64,000 nt of DNA from Nocardioides iriomotensis (GTDB lineage: Bacteria > Actinomycetota > Actinomycetes > Propionibacteriales > Nocardioidaceae): assembly GCF_004168035.1 (NCBI RefSeq), contig NZ_SDPU01000023.1, positions 1 to 64,000 on the forward strand, given 5' to 3'. Positions 2,936 to 55,783 of the stretch are shown one piece after another. Each line of letters starts with the position of its first letter. Within the stretch, counting starts at the first letter, position 1. Made by a program: the position numbers and the translations under genes. Below the pieces are notes generated by a model. That model worked only from the letters and a program-made list of their open reading frames with translations, searched no databases and was not told where the DNA came from.

Positions 2936-4218
2936 CGGGCCGCCACCCCCTCGACCGGCTCCGCGACGGGCTCCTGGGCGGCGGCCGCACGCGTGGCGGC
3001 GTCGTACGTCCAGCGGAGGAAGCGGTCGACGCCACGGACGACCGCCGCGCTGCGGATCGAGGGGAACACGTCGAAGGCGTGCTGGGTCCCGGGCAGCTCG
3101 GCGTAGGCGACCGGCTGGCGCGACACCGCGCGGAGCGCGCGCACGAAGTGCCGGGCCTGCTCGACCTCGACGAGGGAGTCCCGGGCGCCGTGGATGACGA
3201 GCATCGGGGGCGCATCGGCGTTCACACGGGCCAGGGGAGAGGCCTCCTCGAACGGCGTGAGGCAGTCGCTGGGGTCGGCGAACATCACTCGTCCGGCCAG
3301 GAACTTGTCCCGCAGGTCGGCCGAGCGCCGGGTGCCGATCGCGCCGGCGAAGTCGTAGACGCCGTAGAACGGGACGGCCGCCTGGACGGTCGTGTCGGCG
3401 TCCTCGAAGCCGGGCTGGTACGTCGGGTCGTTCGGCGTGAGCGCGGCGAGCGCCGTGAGGTGGCCGCCGGCCGACCCGCCGGTGATCGTGACGTAGCCGG
3501 GGTCGCCGCCGTACTCCGCGGCGTGCTCCTTGACCCAGGCGAGGGCGCGCTTGACGTCGACGATGTGGGCCGGGAACGGGTCGCGCGGGCTGAGCCGGTA
3601 GTTGATCGCGAAGCACACCCAGCCGCGCGCCGCCATGTGCCGCATCAGCGGGACGCCCTGCTCGTCCTTGCTGCCGACCGACCAGGCGCCGCCGTGCACC
3701 TGCACGAGCACCGGCGCGTCGCGCACGTCGGTGCCCCGGCGCCGGTAGACGTCGAGCAGGCCGCGCTTGCCGTGCCGCGGCTCGTAGGGCACGTCCTTGA
3801 CGACCTCGACCTCGTCGTCCCGCTGCCGGAACGGCCAGACGAGCTGGGAGAGCGGGGTGGACAGGTCCAGGTCGGTGTACGTCGCGCGCAGCCGGTCGAG
3901 GTAGTCGTCGCCGAGGGTCTCGCGCAGCGCGGCGTCGACGTGACGGTGCGCCTGCGCCGACTCCGCGACGAGCGCGCCGAGGCCGGCCGCGCTGCCCGCG
4001 GCGAGGGCCAGACCGGCCCGGCTGCGGCGGGACGGTCGGCGGGCGAGCTCGACGGCGGCGTCGGCGGCGGTGAGCGCGAGCAGGTGCGGGGCGAGCTCGC
4101 TGGTGAGCCAGCCGGCCGCGAACGACGGCACCTGGGCCCGGAAGCCGGGGAACGGCCGCACCGCGTTGGCGGTGAGCGCCGCGGTCAGGACCTGGCGGAG
4201 CAGGAAGAGGCGGGACAC
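2932..4218 (-). CDS. Alpha/beta hydrolase (HSL-like carboxylesterase/lipase)
   Basis: A 428-residue protein with a weakly hydrophobic N-terminal region of about 95 residues, then a hydrolase domain. The oxyanion-hole motif HGGAW, the nucleophile elbow GGSAGGH, an acid residue in GARDSLVEV and a His in GTQHAFDVF form the usual Ser-Asp-His set of hormone-sensitive-lipase-type esterases. The GTG start at 4218 sits six bases after a TAGGGT -10 box, so the mRNA is probably leaderless, which supports this start. It is the first gene of a two-gene unit with the methyltransferase (4-bp overlap). The substrate is unknown. Confidence 0.85.
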   Translation of the reverse strand: MSRLFLLRQVLTAALTANAVRPFPGFRAQVPSFAAGWLTSELAPHLLALTAADAAVELARRPSRRSRAGLALAAGSAAGLGALVAESAQAHRHVDAALRETLGDDYLDRLRATYTDLDLSTPLSQLVWPFRQRDDEVEVVKDVPYEPRHGKRGLLDVYRRRGTDVRDAPVLVQVHGGAWSVGSKDEQGVPLMRHMAARGWVCFAINYRLSPRDPFPAHIVDVKRALAWVKEHAAEYGGDPGYVTITGGSAGGHLTALAALTPNDPTYQPGFEDADTTVQAAVPFYGVYDFAGAIGTRRSADLRDKFLAGRVMFADPSDCLTPFEEASPLARVNADAPPMLVIHGARDSLVEVEQARHFVRALRAVSRQPVAYAELPGTQHAFDVFPSIRSAAVVRGVDRFLRWTYDAATRAAAAQEPVAEPVEGVAAR

Positions 4219-4224
4219 GCTGCC

Positions 4225-4230
4225 ACCCTA
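4225..4230 (-). promoter_or_regulatory. -10 box (TAGGGT) of the esterase gene, leaderless
   Basis: TAGGGT read on the minus strand, followed by six bases and the GTG start at 4218. This spacing puts the transcription start at or next to the start codon. No convincing -35 element is visible. Confidence 0.5.
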
Positions 4231-4270
4231 GACACTCAACTGGAACGTGTTGCAGTGAGGGTGACGCGGC

Positions 4271-5779
4271 TCACGTCCCGGTGTCGCCCTCCCAGGTCGC
4301 GAGCCGGCCGCTGCGGTGGACGGCCCGGATCCGCTGCTCGGCGGCGTTGCGCTGCTCGGGGTCGGTGAACACGAGCAGCACGTCGTCGGTCTGCATCTGG
4401 GTGGACGCGGTGAGCGCGCTGGTGGCGCCGTTACGGGAGAGCAGCCCGAGGGTCGAGCCGGACGGCAGCCGCAGCTCGCCGACGAAGACGCCGTGCAGCC
4501 TGCTGCCCGGCGCCACCCGGATCTGCAGGAGGTCGGCGCCGAGCCGGTACAGCGAGCCCGTCCCGACCGAGAGGTCCAGCGGGGTCGCTGTGGCGTACCG
4601 CCGCGTCGGCGGGAACAGCGCCCGCGGCAGCAGCCGGGCGACCGGGCCGGACTGGGCGACGGCCAGCGGGCCGATCACGCCGAGCACCAGGACGTATCCG
4701 GCGGCCAGTGACGCGACCCGCTGGTCGAGCCCGGCCCCGAGGGCGAGGCTGGCCAGCACGAGGGAGAACTCGCCGCGGGTGAGGACGGTGAGGCCGATGT
4801 TGGCGCCCGCCGTACGCCCGAAGCCGTGGATGCGCGCGGCGACCACGCCCGCGCTGACGCAGAGAACGATGGTCATGGCCACGGCGAACGCCACCGCACC
4901 GGCGACGTCGAGCAGGGCGCGCGGGTCGATGCTGAGCCCGAAGTGGAAGAAGAAGATCGCACCGAAAGCGTCACGCAGCGGGTGGGTGAGGTCGCGCAGG
5001 CGCTGGGACTTCTTCGTGGAGCCGAGGATGAGGCCGACCATGAACGCGCCGATGGCGTCGGAGACCCCGAGCGTCTCGGCGATGCCGGCGGTGATGATCG
5101 CGAGGCCGACGAACACAACCACGACGATCTCCTCGTCCTGGGTGTCGATCACCTTGCCGACCCAGCGCGCACCGTGCCGCGCGACCAGCGCCAGGCCGAA
5201 GAGGAACGTGAACGCCGTCGCGATGCCGGTCACCGCCTCGACGGGCCCGTCCGCGCCGCCGAGCACCGGCTGCAGCAGCGCGAGGTAGAAGGCCAGGAAC
5301 AGGTCCTCCATCACGGTGATGCCGAGGATCACCCGGGTCTCGGGGTTGCCGAGGCGGCCGGTCTCGACGAGCAGCTTGGTGACGATTGCGGACGACGAGA
5401 TGCCGACGACCGCGGCGACCACGAGCGCCTCCGCCACGCCCCAGCCGAGCGCGAAGCCGAGCGCCAGGCCGCCCCCGACGTTCAGGGCCAGGTACACCCC
5501 GGCCGCGGACAGCAGCCGCCGGCCACCCGAGGTCAGGTCCTCGAGGGAGAACTCCAGGCCGAGGTAGAAGAGCAGGAACACCAGCCCGAGCCGGGCCACG
5601 AGAGCGAGGTCGTCGGGGTCGGCGACGATGTCCAGCCCCGGGGTGTCCGGGCCGAGCAGCACGCCGGCGATCATGAACAGCGGGATCGTGGGGAGCCCGA
5701 CGGGCACGCCGACGCGCGCGAGCAGGCCGCACACGAGGAACGCCGCTCCGAGGGCGATCAGGCTCTCCGCGGCGTGCAC
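4271..5779 (-). CDS. CPA2-family monovalent cation:proton antiporter with TrkA-C domain
   Basis: A 502-residue integral membrane protein. About a dozen hydrophobic segments fill residues 1-390, with family motifs LGPDTPG, GLVFLLFYLGLEF and the unwound-helix region SSSAIVTKLL; a C-terminal soluble part (about 420-500) resembles a TrkA_C ligand-binding domain. It is of the KefB/GerN type, moving K+ or Na+ against H+. GTG 5779 is chosen because AGGAGG lies just upstream and the hydrophobic N-terminus begins right after it; the frame stays open further upstream but the extra residues are not protein-like. There is no RCK/TrkA_N nucleotide domain, unlike KefB of enterobacteria. Confidence 0.88.
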   Translation of the reverse strand: MHAAESLIALGAAFLVCGLLARVGVPVGLPTIPLFMIAGVLLGPDTPGLDIVADPDDLALVARLGLVFLLFYLGLEFSLEDLTSGGRRLLSAAGVYLALNVGGGLALGFALGWGVAEALVVAAVVGISSSAIVTKLLVETGRLGNPETRVILGITVMEDLFLAFYLALLQPVLGGADGPVEAVTGIATAFTFLFGLALVARHGARWVGKVIDTQDEEIVVVVFVGLAIITAGIAETLGVSDAIGAFMVGLILGSTKKSQRLRDLTHPLRDAFGAIFFFHFGLSIDPRALLDVAGAVAFAVAMTIVLCVSAGVVAARIHGFGRTAGANIGLTVLTRGEFSLVLASLALGAGLDQRVASLAAGYVLVLGVIGPLAVAQSGPVARLLPRALFPPTRRYATATPLDLSVGTGSLYRLGADLLQIRVAPGSRLHGVFVGELRLPSGSTLGLLSRNGATSALTASTQMQTDDVLLVFTDPEQRNAAEQRIRAVHRSGRLATWEGDTGT

Positions 5780-49578: not shown

Positions 49579-49949
49579 CCGACGCCCAGACCGACCCGCA
49601 CGCCGACCTGCCCGAGGTCGACACCACCGGCGGCGGCACCACGACGACCGTCGAGGACGTCACCGAGGCGATGAAGGACGTCGTCGACCCCGAGCTCGGC
49701 ATCAACGTCGTCGACCTCGGCCTCGTCTACGACGTGCACCTCGACGAGGGGGCCAACGTCGTGCTCGACATGACGCTGACCTCGGCGGCCTGCCCGCTGA
49801 CCGACGTGATCACCGACCAGACCGAGCAGGCGCTCGAGGGCCTGGTCAACGACGTCGCGATCAACTGGGTCTGGATGCCGCCGTGGGGCCCGGACAAGAT
49901 CACCGACGACGGCCGCGAGCAGCTCCGCGCGCTCGGGTTCAACGTCTGA
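49575..49949 (+). CDS. sufT: SufT/MIP18-family metal-sulfur cluster assembly factor
   Basis: A 124-residue DUF59 protein: an acidic, Thr-rich tail of about 25 residues, then VTEAMKDVVDPELGINVVDLGLVYDV and the conserved Cys in TSAACPLTD near residue 84. DUF59 proteins help deliver Fe-S clusters to targets. It is coupled to sufU by an ATGA overlap and ends the suf operon. Confidence 0.93.
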   Translation: MTDAQTDPHADLPEVDTTGGGTTTTVEDVTEAMKDVVDPELGINVVDLGLVYDVHLDEGANVVLDMTLTSAACPLTDVITDQTEQALEGLVNDVAINWVWMPPWGPDKITDDGREQLRALGFNV

Positions 49950-49972
49950 CCGTCCCGACCCCGAGCCGGCGC

Positions 49973-50635
49973 ATGTCCACGCGCACCGTCGCGGTGCCGC
50001 CCGAACGGCTCGCGCGCTGGTGCGACAACTTCACCACCCGGCACGGCCCGACCACGCTCGACGTGGTGGACGGCAGGTTGCTGCTCACGGCCGACGACGG
50101 CGAGTCCGCGTCGGCCGTGCTGCCGTTCGGGAGGCGGTACGACGGGGCGCCCGACCCGGCTGTCGTCGCCGACGCGGCCGCGGCGCCGCTGACCTGGGGA
50201 GTCCTGCTCGTGCGCAAGGGCGGCTTCGCCGTCGCGCTGCTCGACACGACCGACCACGTCGTCGCGTCCAAGGTCGGGCAGCGGCACGTCCAGGGCCGCA
50301 CCAAGGCCGGCGGCCAGTCCCAGCAGCGGTTCGCGCGACGCCGGGACAACCAGGCCCGCCAGGCCTACGAGGCCGCCGCCGACCACGCCGCACGCATCCT
50401 CGGTGAGGGGCCACATCACGCACGACACACCGACCAGCACGGTGGGAATGTGGCCTCTCGCGCCCTGGTCGTGGGTGGGGACCGCCAGGCGGTCGACGCC
50501 GTGCTCGACGACCGGCGGCTCGCAACGTGGCGCGACGTGATCGTCGACCCGTGGCTGCCGGTACCCGATCCCCGCCGGTCCGTCCTCGACGACGCCATCG
50601 CCACCGCCCGGTCGGTGCAGATCACCCTGGGCTAG
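49973..50635 (+). CDS. acVLRF1-family peptidyl-tRNA hydrolase
   Basis: A 220-residue actinobacterial Vms1-like release factor, expected to release peptidyl-tRNA from stalled ribosomes. The signature GRTKAGGQSQQRFARRRDNQ (near residue 110) with its catalytic Gln and basic residues is complete, after an N-terminal RNase H-like fold; the C-terminal LVVGGDRQAVDAVLDD and IVDPWLPVPDPRRS resemble the eRF1 middle-domain end. Residues about 145-163 are encoded by a 55-bp inverted-repeat element and look inserted. It stands 23 bp after sufT. Confidence 0.85.
   Translation: MSTRTVAVPPERLARWCDNFTTRHGPTTLDVVDGRLLLTADDGESASAVLPFGRRYDGAPDPAVVADAAAAPLTWGVLLVRKGGFAVALLDTTDHVVASKVGQRHVQGRTKAGGQSQQRFARRRDNQARQAYEAAADHAARILGEGPHHARHTDQHGGNVASRALVVGGDRQAVDAVLDDRRLATWRDVIVDPWLPVPDPRRSVLDDAIATARSVQITLG
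50405..50459 (+). repeat. 55-bp element with 12-bp terminal inverted repeats, inside the acVLRF1 gene
   Basis: Ends GAGGGGCCACAT and ATGTGGCCTCTC are inverted complements at 11 of 12 positions. The element is translated (EGPHHARHTDQHGGNVASR) in phase with the gene. A second, inverted copy lies at 50639-50693; by hand alignment about 40 of 55 positions match, with both ends and the CGACACACC and CGGTGGGAA blocks best conserved. Confidence 0.8.
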
Positions 50636-51724: not shown

Positions 51725-52345
51725 TCATCCCTCGTCGGGCACCGGGTCCTCGGCGCCGCGTGCGACCAGGGCCTCGCCGAGCGCGTCGGCGTGCCGGAGC
51801 GACCGCACGATCAGCGGTACGACGAACGCCCGGGGGCTGGCCCCGAGCCCCCGCGCCCGCTGCGCGTCGCGGACCTCCTGCGCCAGCCCCACCACGACCG
51901 GGACGCACCGGATGCCGAGCGCCAGCAGCAGCCCGACCCGGTCGGGGTCGACGCCGACCCGGCGCAGCGGCCGGCAGACCGCGACGATGGCGTCGACCAG
52001 GTCGGTGGTGCGGGTGCTGAGCGTGACCAGCGCAGCGAGCAGGACCAGCACGGCGAGCACGCCGACGACCACGAACGCCCGGGCCGGCCCGTTGACCAGG
52101 ACGTGGAAGACCGCGGTGCCGAGCGCGATCCAGAGCAGCGGGCGCACCTGCGCGACGGCGACGCGCAGCGAGATCCCGGCGACGCCGTACAGCACCGTGA
52201 CGACGCCGAGGGCGACCAGCACCTGCCACGGCTCGTCGAGCAGCACCGAGACCACGCCGGCGGCGACGAGCCCCAGCAGCTTCAGCCCCGCCGGAGCCCG
52301 GTGCAGCGGCGAGGTGCCGGGGAGGAACAGCCCGAGCGGTGTCAC
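51725..52345 (-). CDS. bioN: ECF transporter transmembrane protein (BioN/EcfT)
   Basis: A 206-residue T component with five hydrophobic segments and two Ala-Arg-Gly coupling motifs, RARGLGASPRAF near residue 166 and LVARGAEDP near residue 195, that contact the ATPases. With BioM and the substrate-binding BioY it forms a biotin-specific energy-coupling-factor importer. GTG 52345 overlaps the bioM stop by 4 bp. It ends the five-gene unit bioY-acs-thl-bioM-bioN. Confidence 0.9.
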   Translation of the reverse strand: MTPLGLFLPGTSPLHRAPAGLKLLGLVAAGVVSVLLDEPWQVLVALGVVTVLYGVAGISLRVAVAQVRPLLWIALGTAVFHVLVNGPARAFVVVGVLAVLVLLAALVTLSTRTTDLVDAIVAVCRPLRRVGVDPDRVGLLLALGIRCVPVVVGLAQEVRDAQRARGLGASPRAFVVPLIVRSLRHADALGEALVARGAEDPVPDEG

Positions 52346-53043
52346 GGCGTGGCCGCCATCAGGGACCGGTAGTGCGCGACCGCCGCACCGGGCGCGTCGT
52401 CGCAGACCAGCCGGCCCTCGTCGAACACCAGCACCCGGTCGAAGTCGTCCAGCAGGTCGAGGTGGTGGGTCACCAGCAGGACCTGCTCGGGCAGCCCGGC
52501 GACCACCTCGGCGATCCGGGCGGCGTTGCGCAGGTCGAGCAGCGTCGTCGGCTCGTCCATCACCAGCACCGCCGGCTCGGTCACCATCACCGACGCCAGC
52601 GCGAGCAGCTGCTTCTGGCCGCCGGACAGCAGGTGCGCGGGGTGGTCGGCGTGGCCGTCGAGGCCGTACGCCGCCAGCACGCTCGCCACGCGGGCGGCGA
52701 CCTCGTCCTTGGGGACGCCGCGCCGGCGCAGCCCGAACGCGACGTCCTCGGCCACGGTCGGCATCACGATCTGGGCGTCGGGGTCGGTGAAGCAGAATCC
52801 CACCAGCCGGCGCACCCCGCGACCCTGCGAGCGGGTGTCGAGGCCGTCGACGCGGACCCGCCCCGACGTCGGAAGCACGAGCCCGTTGAGCAGCCGGGCG
52901 AACGTCGACTTGCCGGACCCGTTGGCGCCGATCACCCCGACCCGCTGCTCGGAGAGCGTCACCGTCACGTCGGCCAGCACGGTCCGCGCGGCGGCGCCCG
53001 CGCCGTACACGTGGCCGACGCCCTCCACCTCGATCAGCGGCAC
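52342..53043 (-). CDS. bioM: ECF transporter ATPase (BioM)
   Basis: A 233-residue ABC ATPase with Walker A GANGSGKST near residue 41, the EcfA Q-loop region CFTDPDAQIVMPTVAEDVAFG, signature LSGGQKQLLALA near residue 140, Walker B AVLVMDEPTTLLD and H-switch VTHHLDL. It energises BioNY. Its start (GTG 53043) overlaps the thiolase stop by 10 bp, so the thiolase is co-translated with the transporter. Confidence 0.92.
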   Translation of the reverse strand: MPLIEVEGVGHVYGAGAAARTVLADVTVTLSEQRVGVIGANGSGKSTFARLLNGLVLPTSGRVRVDGLDTRSQGRGVRRLVGFCFTDPDAQIVMPTVAEDVAFGLRRRGVPKDEVAARVASVLAAYGLDGHADHPAHLLSGGQKQLLALASVMVTEPAVLVMDEPTTLLDLRNAARIAEVVAGLPEQVLLVTHHLDLLDDFDRVLVFDEGRLVCDDAPGAAVAHYRSLMAATP

Positions 53044-54176
53044 GCCTGCACCACCATCGCGACCCCCTGGCCGCCGCCGACGGCGATCCCGGCCAGGCCG
53101 ATCTCGCCCCGGTCCTGGTGCACGAGCCGGCTGAACAGCCGCACCGCGAGCACGGCGCCGGACGCACCCCACGGGTGGCCGAGCGCGAGCGCGCCGCCGT
53201 CGGGGCAGACCCGCTCCTCGTCGAGCCCGAGGTCGTCGCAGCAGGCGAGCACCTGGCCGGCGAACGCCTCGTTGAGCTCGACCGCGTCGACGTCGTCGAG
53301 GGTCAGCCCGGCCTCGTCGAGCGCGGCGCGGACGGCGGGCACCAGGCCGAGCCCGGGCAGCTGCGGGTCGACGCCCGCGGTGGCGGTGGCGAGCACACGG
53401 AGGCCGGGGAGGCCCAGCTCGGCGTGGGTGGCGGCGTCGACGATCGCCACGGCGGCCGCGCCGTCGTTGACGCCGCAGGCGTTGCCGGCCGTGACGGTCC
53501 CGCCGTCCACGAACGCGGGCCGCAGCCGGGCCAGCCGCTCGACGGTCAGCCCGGCGCGGACCCGCTCGTCGCGGGCGAGGCCGGCCACGGGCAGCACCTC
53601 GGCGCCGAACGTGCCGGCCTCCCAGGCGGCGGCGGCGCGGGCGTGGGAGCGCGCGGAGTAGGCGTCCTGCCGCTCCCGGGTGACGCCGTACTTCGCGGCG
53701 AGCTGGTCCGCGGCCACGCCCATGTCGGGGTCGCCGAGCGTGGCCGGCGCGAACGGCGCGCGGGTGTAGCGCACCGGGTCCGCGCCGTCGGCCGGCGGCC
53801 GGAAACGCCACGGCGCCGTCGACGCCGACTCGACGCCACCCGCCAGCACCAGTCCCGGACGCGCGCGCACCAGCGCGGTCGCGACGTCGATCGCGGCCAG
53901 GCCGCTGCCGCACTGGCGGTCGACCGTCAGGGCGGGTACGGCGACCGGCAGACCCGCGGCGAGCGAGGCGACCCGCGCCACGTCGCCGCCGGGACCCGTG
54001 CAGTTGCCGAGCACGACGTCGTGGGGGAGCAGCCCGTCGAGCGAGCCCGCGAGCGCGGCGAGCACCGGCGCAGCGAGGTCGGCCGCGGTGACGTCGCGCA
54101 GCGCCCGGCCGGCGGTGCCGATCGGCGTGCGCAGCGCGGCGACGACGACCGGGGCGTCGGCGGCGGTCAGGGTCAC
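53034..54176 (-). CDS. Thiolase-fold acyltransferase lacking the C-terminal catalytic Cys
   Basis: A 380-residue thiolase-superfamily protein. The acylated nucleophile Cys is present in VDRQCGSGLAAID near residue 90, with NEAFAGQV near residue 300 and the catalytic His in GHPWGASGA near residue 335. The C-terminal motif, normally Cys-x-Gly-Gly-Gly, reads GIAVGGGQGVAM: the general-base Cys is Ala. It may be an acyl-transferring or degradative variant rather than a full acetyl-CoA acetyltransferase. It lies between an acyl-CoA-synthetase-like gene and bioM in a biotin-uptake cluster. Confidence 0.85.
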   Translation of the reverse strand: MTLTAADAPVVVAALRTPIGTAGRALRDVTAADLAAPVLAALAGSLDGLLPHDVVLGNCTGPGGDVARVASLAAGLPVAVPALTVDRQCGSGLAAIDVATALVRARPGLVLAGGVESASTAPWRFRPPADGADPVRYTRAPFAPATLGDPDMGVAADQLAAKYGVTRERQDAYSARSHARAAAAWEAGTFGAEVLPVAGLARDERVRAGLTVERLARLRPAFVDGGTVTAGNACGVNDGAAAVAIVDAATHAELGLPGLRVLATATAGVDPQLPGLGLVPAVRAALDEAGLTLDDVDAVELNEAFAGQVLACCDDLGLDEERVCPDGGALALGHPWGASGAVLAVRLFSRLVHQDRGEIGLAGIAVGGGQGVAMVVQACR

Positions 54177-54185
54177 GGTCCCAAC

Positions 54186-55148
54186 CTAGAGCCCGGTCAG
54201 CGGCCGCAGCGTCGGCGCCCGCTCCGCGACCGCGTCCCGGTCGACCTTGCCGGCGGCGGTCAGCGGCAGGGCGTCGACATGCCACCAGCGGCGCGGCCGG
54301 GCGGCGTCGACGAGCTCCTCACGGGCGGCGGCGACGAGACGGCCGTGGTCGTCGGCGTCGGTGAGGACCACCGCGAGCACCTCGCCGAGCGTCGGGTGCG
54401 GGACGCCGAGGACGATGAGCTCGCCGCGAGCGTGCGCGCGCAGCACCGCCTCGACCTCGCTGATCCGCACCGTCACGCCGCCGGTGGTCACGGCGTCCGC
54501 GCGGCCGTGCAGCACCAGGACGCCATCGGCGAACGTGCCGAGGTCGCCGACCGTCGCCCAGCCCTCGGCGTCGGCCCGACCGAGGGCGAGGTACGGCGAG
54601 CAGACCCACACCTCGCCGTCGCGCACGTCGACCTCGACGCCGGGGAACGGGCGCAGCGACGCGGCGTGCCGGCCCCACGCGACGAACGACAGCTCGGCCG
54701 CCCCGTAGTAGTGGTGCACCACCAGGCCCGCGCCCTCGGCACGCGTCGCGAGCCCGGGCCCGAGCGGGGCACCCGCGACCACCACGGTGAGCCCGTCGGG
54801 CACGGTGCGGTCGAGCAGCACGTCGAGCGCGGTCGGGGTGAGCACGGCATGGCTCGCGTCGGCGACGTCGTCGACCAGCACGGCGCCGGTCCAGGCGGCG
54901 TGCACCCGCGCGAAGACGTTCATCGACCCGGTCGACGGGCCGGGTACCCACAGGCGCGTCCCCGGGCCGATCCCGGACAGGTCGGTGACCGCGTCGAACG
55001 ACACCACCCACGACGTCGTCGTGCGGGTGACGGTCCGCGGCCGGGTCGTCGATCCGGCGGTGCGGAGCGTGACCGGTTCCCCGCGCGCGTGCGCGTCCCG
55101 GAAGGCGGCGACCGGGTCGGCCGCCGTCGTCAGGTCGTGCTCAGACAG
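54186..55148 (-). CDS. AMP-binding (acyl-CoA synthetase/MenE-like) protein, probable CTG start
   Basis: A compact adenylate-forming enzyme, about 320 residues with the full N-terminus. The A3 phosphate loop TLRTAGSTTRPRTVTRT lies upstream of the first ATG/GTG (GTG 55007), so that start would remove an essential motif; in frame, CTG 55148 (CTGTCTGAGC..., overlapping the bioY stop) gives LSEHDLTTAADPVAAF and includes it. Other motifs: YYGAAELSFVAWG near residue 152, ATVGDLG (A7-like) and PLTAAGKVDRDAV with the catalytic Lys near the end. The fold is shortened at the N-terminus compared with the usual 500 residues, like MenE. The acyl substrate is unknown; biotin-related acids are an inference from context. 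Confidence 0.75.
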   Translation of the reverse strand: MSEHDLTTAADPVAAFRDAHARGEPVTLRTAGSTTRPRTVTRTTTSWVVSFDAVTDLSGIGPGTRLWVPGPSTGSMNVFARVHAAWTGAVLVDDVADASHAVLTPTALDVLLDRTVPDGLTVVVAGAPLGPGLATRAEGAGLVVHHYYGAAELSFVAWGRHAASLRPFPGVEVDVRDGEVWVCSPYLALGRADAEGWATVGDLGTFADGVLVLHGRADAVTTGGVTVRISEVEAVLRAHARGELIVLGVPHPTLGEVLAVVLTDADDHGRLVAAAREELVDAARPRRWWHVDALPLTAAGKVDRDAVAERAPTLRPLTGL

Positions 55149-55770
55149 CCTGCTGCTCCGACGCCTCGGCCGACTCGCGGGCGGCGCGGCCCTCGCCGAG
55201 CAGCCCCGGGTACGCCGCGTGCACGCCGCGCGCGACGACGGCCGCGACGACCACCTTCACCAGGTCGCCGGGCAGGTAGATCCAGCTGGCCACGGTCGCC
55301 GCCCACGGCGTGATGCCGAGGACGACCGCCATCCCGGCGATGCCGAGGAGGTAGAGCACCACGACGCCGCCGACGAAGTTGGCGACGATCCCCCAGTGCA
55401 GCTTGTACGTCGGACCGGCGCGCTCGGTGAGCCACCCCACGACGTACGCGGCGACGGGATAGCCGATCAGGAAGCCGACCGACGGCCCGGCGAACACGCC
55501 CAGGCCGCCGCGGCCGCCGGCCAGCAACGGCAGGCCGACGGCGACCAGGGCGAGGAACAGGACGAGCGCCAGCCCGCCGCGACGGGCGCCGAGGATCGCG
55601 CCGGCCAGCATCACGCCGAGCGACTGCGCGGTGATCGGCACGCTGAAGCCGGGTGGGGTGAAGGCGGGCACCAGCCCGAGGGCGGCGACGACCCCGGCGA
55701 ACATCGCGACGAGCGCGAGGTCGCGGGACGTGAAGCGCGGGGAGGGGGACGGGGCGGAGGCGCGGGTCAC
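55141..55770 (-). CDS. bioY: Biotin transporter substrate-binding protein BioY
   Basis: A 209-residue S component with six membrane helices and the BioY motifs GFSVPITAQSLGVMLAGAILG near residue 40 and GPSVGFLIGYPVAAYVVG near residue 95, which bind biotin. It heads the cluster with acs, thl, bioM and bioN. The GTG start lies seven bases after a TAGACT -10 box, so it is probably leaderless. No clear BirA/BioQ operator is visible upstream. Confidence 0.93.
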   Translation of the reverse strand: MTRASAPSPSPRFTSRDLALVAMFAGVVAALGLVPAFTPPGFSVPITAQSLGVMLAGAILGARRGGLALVLFLALVAVGLPLLAGGRGGLGVFAGPSVGFLIGYPVAAYVVGWLTERAGPTYKLHWGIVANFVGGVVVLYLLGIAGMAVVLGITPWAATVASWIYLPGDLVKVVVAAVVARGVHAAYPGLLGEGRAARESAEASEQQAV

Positions 55771-55777
55771 GCGCCGC

Positions 55778-55783
55778 AGTCTA
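55778..55783 (-). promoter_or_regulatory. -10 box (TAGACT) of the bioY cluster, leaderless
   Basis: TAGACT on the minus strand ends seven bases before GTG 55770 and is the only promoter seen for the five-gene unit. Confidence 0.5.

Follow-up and report, generated by a model that had tools for sequence, protein, structure and literature searches.

Gene combinations that join a biotin importer to an AMP-binding enzyme and a thiolase have been described in several bacteria. In Bacillus subtilis, the operators bound by BirA are those of bioWAFDBI, yuiG and yhfUTS, and binding at the yhfU operator requires both biotin and ATP (PMC4016012). In Staphylococcus aureus, the promoter of the yhfS-yhfT pair is repressed by biotin (PMC6391492), and a review places this pair downstream of bioY (PMC11089781). 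Moreover, bioB (encoding BioY), SMc00965 (AMP-binding) and SMc00966 (thiolase) of Sinorhizobium meliloti change together in RNA-seq, with log2 fold values of -3.28, -2.61 and -2.20 in nolR+ (PMC12445080). YhfS has been assigned to a dead-end mevalonate pathway (PMC3686787). As far as the open text of these reports goes, the published roles of YhfT/YhfS-type genes rest on annotation or association. In this study, we analyzed a stretch of 64,000 nucleotides from Nocardioides iriomotensis (contig NZ_SDPU01000023.1, positions 1 to 64,000; hereafter, the window), in which a ligase gene and a thiolase gene lie inside an operon for a biotin importer. Judged from its sequence, this locus is a BioMNY importer of the energy-coupling factor (ECF) type combined with a two-enzyme coenzyme A (CoA)-thioester module related to YhfT-YhfS of B. 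subtilis. We tentatively propose, with a probability of about one third, that the pair salvages biotin vitamers with altered side chains as CoA thioesters, perhaps by malonyl-dependent extension by two carbons; both the substrate and the reaction are what we infer from the evidence below.

A ligase-thiolase pair beside bioY

The genes bioY, ligase, thiolase, bioM and bioN form a single minus-strand operon of five open reading frames (55770-51725; Table 1). Pfam and NCBIfam concur in assigning them to BioY, AMP-binding_C, Thiolase_N/C, ABC_tran/ECF ATPase and CbiQ. Hence, the reading of five coupled genes with overlaps of 8, 10 and 4 bp, given in an initial annotation of this DNA, agrees with coordinates and profiles alike: bioY and the ligase overlap by 8 bp (given a CTG start of the ligase), the thiolase and bioM by 10 bp, and bioM and bioN by 4 bp, and a gap of 9 bp separates the ligase from the thiolase. 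A BioY S-component, a dedicated ATPase and a T-component are present within one operon, as expected of BioMNY, and bioY, ligase and thiolase are adjacent in the yhfUTS-type order. In the GD..K motif of the window BioY, both conserved residues, Asp and Lys, are present.

BioY was found in 86 of the 120 genomes of the window's family. A search of these 120 genomes with PRK06690, the YhfS equivalog model, returned 32 matches in 30 genomes at E<=1e-76. Each of the 21 matches of at least 289 bits is found at a distance of 1.0-1.2 kb from bioY; not one of the 11 weaker matches (at most 285.3 bits) is near this gene. A chance neighbourhood of thiolase and bioY was rejected on account of the 21 strong matches. 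Besides the window, we examined 40 bioY neighbourhoods, 20 with a strong thiolase match adjoining bioY and 20 that complete the genus or cover other genera. The ligase-thiolase pair adjoins bioY in 24 of the 41 neighbourhoods, window included, which is not a frequency because the neighbourhoods were chosen and not drawn at random; pairs below the profile threshold may be missed in the remaining 45 family genomes with bioY. The order bioY-ligase-thiolase occurs in 23 of the 40 other neighbourhoods (the contig of L089 ends within the thiolase), and bioM-bioN then follow wherever the contig continues, in L069 after one extra gene. By the search used, the other 17 neighbourhoods comprise bioY-bioM-bioN alone (10), an extra gene between bioY and bioM (1), bioY without bioM and bioN (5) and no bioY (1). 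Within the window's own genus, the pair is present in all seven genomes where bioY was found, with a broken thiolase frame in L088.

Farther away, 84 of the 396 genomes of the phylum have a PRK06690 match at E<=1e-82. Among the 29 loci listed besides the window's, the full bioY-ligase-thiolase-bioM-bioN order is found in three genomes of other families (G343, G386 and G169), and G127 has the pair with bioY about 34 kb away; the remaining 25 have neither bioY nor ligase within 1.5 kb flanks. Searches of plasmid records matched 525 of them with the window ligase at E<=1e-5 and 75 with the window thiolase at E<=1e-60 (65 Rhizobium, 5 Azospirillum, 4 Sinorhizobium and 1 Nonomuraea). Ten plasmid-collection loci, picked from the match lists and not drawn, were laid out. 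In eight of them bioY lies near the pair, namely in Azospirillum (two loci), Sinorhizobium meliloti, Paracoccus yeei, Alloyangia, Pseudosulfitobacter, Nonomuraea gerenzanensis and Streptantibioticus cattleyicolor. A tblastn search of the plasmids with the window BioY gave no match, a search that is too weak, since the collection has BioY beside the pair. A hotdog thioesterase and an oxidoreductase of the medium-chain dehydrogenase/reductase (MDR) type flank the module in the Sinorhizobium, both Rhizobium and the Streptantibioticus loci. In three Rhodobacterales plasmid loci (L140, L143 and L144), a nitroreductase-family gene adjoins the pair convergently.

Relatives of the pair therefore stand beside biotin importers in at least two phyla. 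The outcome that would have refuted the initial annotation, namely no linkage between the pair and bioY in relatives, did not occur, and a stable tie between an acid-activating enzyme and biotin import gains support from the loci in the family (24 of 41), in other families (3) and on plasmids (8 of 10).

The thiolase-fold protein and the short ligase

In thiolases (Zoogloea numbering), the nucleophile is Cys89, the oxyanion hole involves Asn316 and His348, and the base is Cys378 (PMC3406046). The window thiolase scores over the cut-off of TIGR01930. Among equivalog models PRK06690 scores highest, with only the broad TIGR01930 above it, and its 340.8 bits fall short of the curated cut-off of 498 bits. 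When the window's own genome was searched with PRK06690, the operon thiolase reached 339.7 bits versus 223.6 for the next thiolase. Set against what a catalytic thiolase (Claisen type, EC 2.3.1.9/16) requires, the protein keeps Cys89 and lacks the acid/base Cys378 of the CxGGG loop, where it has Ala365.

This loss is a property of a whole clade. We aligned 37 clade rows with 41 other rows (40 genes, as L006 equals L008), the latter being YhfS-profile matches or thiolases of the window's own genome and not a random set; L039-L058 were skipped as repeats of the genes of L068-L087. Neither the tree nor the 35 rows readable at the Cys378 place include L088 (out of frame) or L086 (which stops short of this place); L038 was too short. 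Cys89 is kept in all 37 clade rows and all 41 others, and His348 in every row except L088. None of the 35 readable clade rows has Cys at the Cys378 place (Ala in 24, Gly in 6, Ser in 5), versus 41 of 41 other rows. At the Asn316 place, Asn is found in 29 of the 36 clade rows without L088 (Met in 3, Thr in 3, Val in 1) and in 40 of the other 41, the last having His. In a maximum-likelihood tree of 76 rows, the 35 Cys378-less sequences form one branch with 100/99 support, recovered in 100% of 200 bootstrap trees, and none of 500 label shuffles gave a value as low. Thirty-two of these 35 genes are near bioY; the three that are not belong to two Rhizobium loci and to G127. In L088 (genome G033, same genus), the thiolase is split over two frames at about 4498-5584 in bioY orientation, which may reflect a frameshift or an assembly error.

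The active site of YhfS was read through the NCBIfam profile PRK06690 alone, probed with variants of the C-terminal part of the window protein. Depending on the residue at the Cys378 place, this profile gave 147.4 bits for Ala, 147.4 for Cys, 150.7 for Gly, 147.6 for Ser, 147.4 for Thr, 147.3 for Asn, 146.4 for Val and 145.9 for Leu, so that Gly gains 3.3 bits and Cys none. In each of the 24 other models listed, replacing Ala by Cys adds 4.3 to 5.8 bits, as in TIGR01930 (166.0 to 171.3) and PRK09051, BktB (154.1 to 159.9). Since the PRK06690 profile is indifferent to Cys and prefers Gly, the YhfS profile does not expect Cys378 either. Judged by their enzyme families, the ligase should make an acyl-CoA, and the thiolase-fold enzyme can accept an acyl group on Cys89, whereas deprotonation of acetyl-CoA and ordinary thiolysis are expected to be slow. 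An ordinary thiolytic reaction was accordingly rejected as a candidate, and the proposal in the initial annotation that the pair shortens an acid in this way is disfavoured, because the Claisen base is absent throughout the readable clade. If this protein is no working thiolase, thiolase names are wrong in many genomes. The missing residue also predicts one loss of activity and offers a sharp test.

In the ligase, a short protein, residues 30-308 align with positions 151-476 of PRK07638, the YhfT equivalog model of 487 positions (1.1e-26), and therefore about 150 N-terminal positions are missing; the full N-terminal subdomain of ANL enzymes is not present. PRK07638 is the best of 56 matching NCBIfam models, with 93.4 bits against a curated cut-off of 518. 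The second-best model, PRK07824, is also short (362 positions), and many next-best profiles are fatty-acid CoA ligases. The protein contains TAGSTTRPR (P-loop-like), YYGAAE, VGDLG, GRAD and AAGK (within AAGKVDR), and the P-loop, YGxxE, GD and C-terminal GK motifs of the ANL group are thus present. A single-sequence AlphaFold2 model of the ligase had a mean predicted local distance difference test score of 40.5 and was not used.

The first ATG, GTG or TTG in the ligase frame is a GTG at 55007, behind the P-loop, and the likely start is a CTG 8 bp inside bioY. At this site, 22 aligned relatives (L068-L081, L083-L089 and L098) have CTG in 14 cases, GTG in 1, ATG in 1 and no start codon in 6, these six having another candidate start nearby. 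A Shine-Dalgarno-like word, by a simple pattern, lies upstream of 12 of the 14 CTG sites. The CTG that overlaps the bioY stop by 8 bp in the window (55141-55148, minus strand; CTGTCTGA or CTGCCTGA) seems to be an unusually conserved CTG initiation site. In L081 (genome G011, same genus), the ligase match falls in two pieces at about 3500-4461 in bioY orientation, possibly through a frameshift.

Candidate functions of the pair

BioB is over the cut-off in 37 of the 120 family genomes and in only 1 of the 24 that bear the pair (G051); some of these 24 are incomplete, and the count is likewise 1 for the 18 with a completeness of 90% or more. BioD is over the cut-off in 1 of 12 pair-bearing genomes tested (G051), the other 11 having no match over 24 bits. 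For BioF, none of the 12 is over the cut-off; G051 has one strong match (377 bits) and the other 11 have none over 40 bits. In the window genome, none of BioB, BioD and BioF was found over the cut-off, and by gene content its host is a biotin auxotroph. Beyond the family, G169 and G127 have BioB, and G343 and G386 lack it. The absence of BioB from 23 of the 24 pair-bearing family genomes means that the pair there cannot feed de novo synthesis; whatever pathway it serves in the window's family must be another. Judging from gene content, the window pair cannot serve synthesis from pimelate, dethiobiotin or any other precursor without a finished ring, unless a synthase went unrecognised. Salvage of a biotin precursor, which the initial annotation had also considered, is disfavoured because the window's own genome lacks BioB, BioD and BioF over the cut-off. 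Biotin protein ligase is encoded in all 28 pair-bearing genomes searched, and the pair was rejected as a substitute biotin ligase born of need.

The observations behind the salvage reading are the conserved operon, the lost Claisen base, the lack of BioB in 23 of 24 pair-bearing family genomes and the normal biotin protein ligase. Under this reading, a cell short of biotin would import a biotin-ring acid with a non-biotin side chain, bisnorbiotin being the obvious candidate. Bisnorbiotin is a natural vitamer that makes up 13-23% of the biotin compounds in human urine (PMC9106636). The short ANL enzyme would turn the imported acid into its CoA thioester, and the thiolase-fold enzyme would load the acyl group on Cys89, aided by His348. 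Having no base for acetyl-CoA, this enzyme might then extend the acyl group by two carbons with a malonyl donor, in the manner of BioZ, a 3-ketoacyl-acyl carrier protein synthase III (KAS III), or pass the group on to a different acceptor. The product would be completed and released as a free acid, available to biotin protein ligase, by house-keeping enzymes of fatty-acid metabolism or, in some relatives, by the MDR reductase and thioesterase linked to the pair. A precedent exists in BioZ itself, which extends glutaryl-CoA by two carbons with malonyl-acyl carrier protein (malonyl-ACP) and feeds biotin synthesis via type II fatty acid synthesis (PMC8024396). The reductase and thioesterase in some relatives fit such a reduce-and-release sequence. 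Two-carbon lengthening of a biotin-ring compound, the other half of the initial proposal, thus survives conditionally: it would need malonyl (decarboxylative) chemistry or an as yet unrecognised base. A trace flux is enough for a vitamin, and therefore scarcity of malonyl-CoA under biotin limitation would not forbid the extension. In its most specific form, an undescribed pathway of vitamin repair, biotin-starved and auxotrophic bacteria would take up biotin with a shortened side chain (bisnorbiotin), join it to CoA and restore the two missing carbons through a thiolase-fold enzyme turned malonyl-decarboxylating synthase by loss of its Claisen base; we hold this version to be unlikely.

Several observations weigh against salvage. 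Met, Thr or Val at the Asn316 place in 7 of 36 clade rows weakens the case for any Claisen chemistry there. Both Rhizobium loci are thioesterase-ligase-thiolase clusters without an adjacent bioY, and in the Protein Data Bank the Rhizobium MDR protein is matched best by a putative quinone reductase (3gms, 169 bits) and not by an enoyl reductase; mitochondrial 2-enoyl thioester reductases come second (about 101 bits). The MDR and thioesterase genes are not part of the window operon. No BioR box (consensus TTATMKATAA; PMC4494728) with at most one mismatch was found in 9 plasmid-collection loci. The pair-bearing genomes G051, G127 and G169 have BioB, and B. subtilis, with the pair, has a biotin synthesis operon (PMC4016012). 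Moreover, S. aureus BirA is said to regulate fatty acid elongation (PMC6391492), and B. subtilis YhfT has been given a part in surfactin production (PMC6323116), both of which point to fatty acids.

BioY residues were compared separately. Pair-linked BioY proteins have Val in 29 of 31 and Leu in 30 of 31 at positions 69 and 76, where 14 of 16 other BioY have Gly and Phe (47 sequences; Lactococcus lactis numbering, assumed via an offset of 9). We see in this comparison no sign of a different ligand because L. lactis BioY carries Ala and Leu at these places.

A biotin-regulated lipid function is a tentative alternative, nearly as likely as salvage because many ligase profiles and the role guesses of the literature lean to fatty acids. 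Acetyl-CoA carboxylase would be limiting when biotin is scarce, and the operon would therefore couple biotin uptake to the use of exogenous fatty acids; the ligase would make acyl-CoA, and the thiolase-fold protein would transfer the acyl group to ACP, a lipid or another acceptor. The elongation role ascribed to S. aureus BirA and the link of YhfT to surfactin, a lipopeptide, agree with this explanation, as do the fatty-acid CoA ligases among the next-best profiles and the residue losses at the Cys378 place and, in 7 of 36 rows, at the Asn316 place, which leave an acyl-enzyme but no Claisen chemistry. It leaves unexplained, however, why the pair sits inside the importer operon in separate lineages and why a thioesterase, which would undo the activation, accompanies it; the window ligase also lacks the N-terminal part of fatty-acid CoA ligases. 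In another reading the substrate is biotin itself, trapped by the ligase as biotinyl-CoA and stored, released or passed to a protein acceptor by the thiolase-fold protein, a role compatible with the tight coupling to BioY, the retention of Cys89 and His348 and the loss of the Claisen base. We consider this improbable, given the ordinary biotin protein ligase in every pair-bearing genome searched. In addition, an ECF importer is driven by ATP and requires no trap.

Catabolism or detoxification, that is, beta-oxidative shortening of biotin or of biotin antimetabolites imported by BioY, would suit a ligase and a thiolase as the usual start and end of beta-oxidation, as well as the reductase and thioesterase of some relatives. 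Nevertheless, it is quite improbable: the thiolase lacks the cysteine used in thiolysis, and 23 of the 24 family genomes, auxotrophs by gene content, would destroy a vitamin that they need. Biotin repression in S. aureus and biotin-dependent binding of BirA at the yhfU operator in B. subtilis speak against it as well, as those pairs should therefore be on when biotin is scarce. The least probable explanation, to which we give hardly any weight, is that the pair provides de novo synthesis with a precursor, a pimeloyl thioester made from glutarate, azelate or pimelate. It can draw on the coexistence of pair and synthesis operon in B. subtilis and on BioB in G051, G127 and G169, but it was rejected for the window's family on the distribution of BioB, BioD and BioF given above. 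Under salvage or under the lipid function, this operon would offer a natural setting for studies of the repair of biotin vitamers or of lipid scavenging controlled by biotin.

Operon layout and comparison with known systems

The initial annotation placed the five genes under one leaderless promoter. A leaderless bioY promoter is plausible in the window, where a candidate -10 element precedes bioY (Table 1), and 8 of 23 relatives have a similar TANNNT 7-8 nt before the candidate bioY start; the other 15 have none. Beyond bioN, at a distance of about 1 kb and on the opposite strand, the window encodes an acVLRF1-family protein (49883-50635, plus strand; a release-factor-like peptidyl-tRNA hydrolase by model name).

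Table 1. Features of the importer operon in the window.
Feature	Coordinates	Strand	Basis
bioY, S-component of ECF biotin importer	55141..55770	-	GTG start; PF02632 1.7e-35; 4dve L. lactis BioY 6.8e-20
Short ANL (AMP-binding) acyl-CoA ligase-like protein, 320 aa	54186..55148	-	AMP-binding_C 3e-8; probable CTG start
Thiolase-fold protein, YhfS-like Cys378-less clade, 380 aa	53034..54176	-	Thiolase_N 1.2e-53, Thiolase_C 8.2e-35
bioM, ECF ATPase	52342..53043	-	ABC_tran 3.3e-25; ECF_ATPase_1 1.1e-58 (under its curated cut-off)
bioN, ECF T-component	51725..52345	-	CbiQ 1.9e-15
TAGACT, candidate -10 element, 7 nt before bioY GTG	55778..55783	-	Sequence; leaderless promoter candidate
Codon of nucleophile Cys (residue 89 = Zoogloea Cys89), kept	53910..53912	-	Alignment
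Codon of Asn302 (= Zoogloea Asn316), kept in window	53271..53273	-	Alignment
Codon of His334 (= Zoogloea His348), kept	53175..53177	-	Alignment
Codon of Ala365, at place of Zoogloea catalytic base Cys378 (lost)	53082..53084	-	Alignment; profile probing

The claim in the initial annotation that no pathway is described for this combination holds for a tested pathway, none being found in the open-licence PubMed Central literature, but the gene combination itself is already published, as yhfUTS, yhfS-yhfT and bioB-SMc00965-SMc00966. In the same literature we found nothing on bisnorbiotin with bacteria and beta-oxidation or on vraA, vraB and biotin, and we did not meet there the importer-embedded form with a short ligase across a family, the Cys378 loss in the clade or the auxotroph setting.

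The closest counterpart is yhfUTS of B. subtilis, with the same order of bioY (YhfU), ligase (YhfT) and thiolase (YhfS). Among 14 control genomes, PRK07638 and PRK06690 were matched at E<=1e-140 by B. subtilis alone, in proteins that by annotation would be YhfT and YhfS, and the same two models are the best-scoring equivalogs for the window ligase and thiolase. Unlike in B. subtilis, the window proteins reach 93 of 518 and 341 of 498 bits, far below the cut-offs, the N-terminal part of the ligase is missing, the operon includes bioM and bioN, and the host lacks BioB. The S. aureus yhfS-yhfT genes are likewise a ligase-thiolase pair, under biotin control via biotin protein ligase, and they are described as an operon separate from bioY (PMC6391492, PMC7235819), unlike the window pair. 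The locus of S. meliloti strain Ak57 reads bioM-bioN-bioY-ligase-thiolase and differs in its adjacent thioesterase and MDR reductase; it has no annotated ligase coding sequence, the ligase-like match lying within about 1.5 kb between bioY and the thiolase. Corynebacterium glutamicum shares the bioYMN operon, with demonstrated biotin uptake and induction by biotin limitation (PMC3398298), although it consists of bioY-bioM-bioN only, and the word thiolase is absent from the available text of that paper. BioZ, a KAS III-type condensing enzyme with a Cys nucleophile, is a model for malonyl-dependent two-carbon extension in biotin metabolism; it differs from the window thiolase in belonging to another subfamily, in its Cys-His-Asn triad and in making a precursor (PMC8024396); the genes for the later steps of synthesis are missing from the window host. 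Finally, classical biosynthetic and degradative thiolases share with the window protein the family matches, Cys89 and His348, and are set apart from it by the base Cys378.

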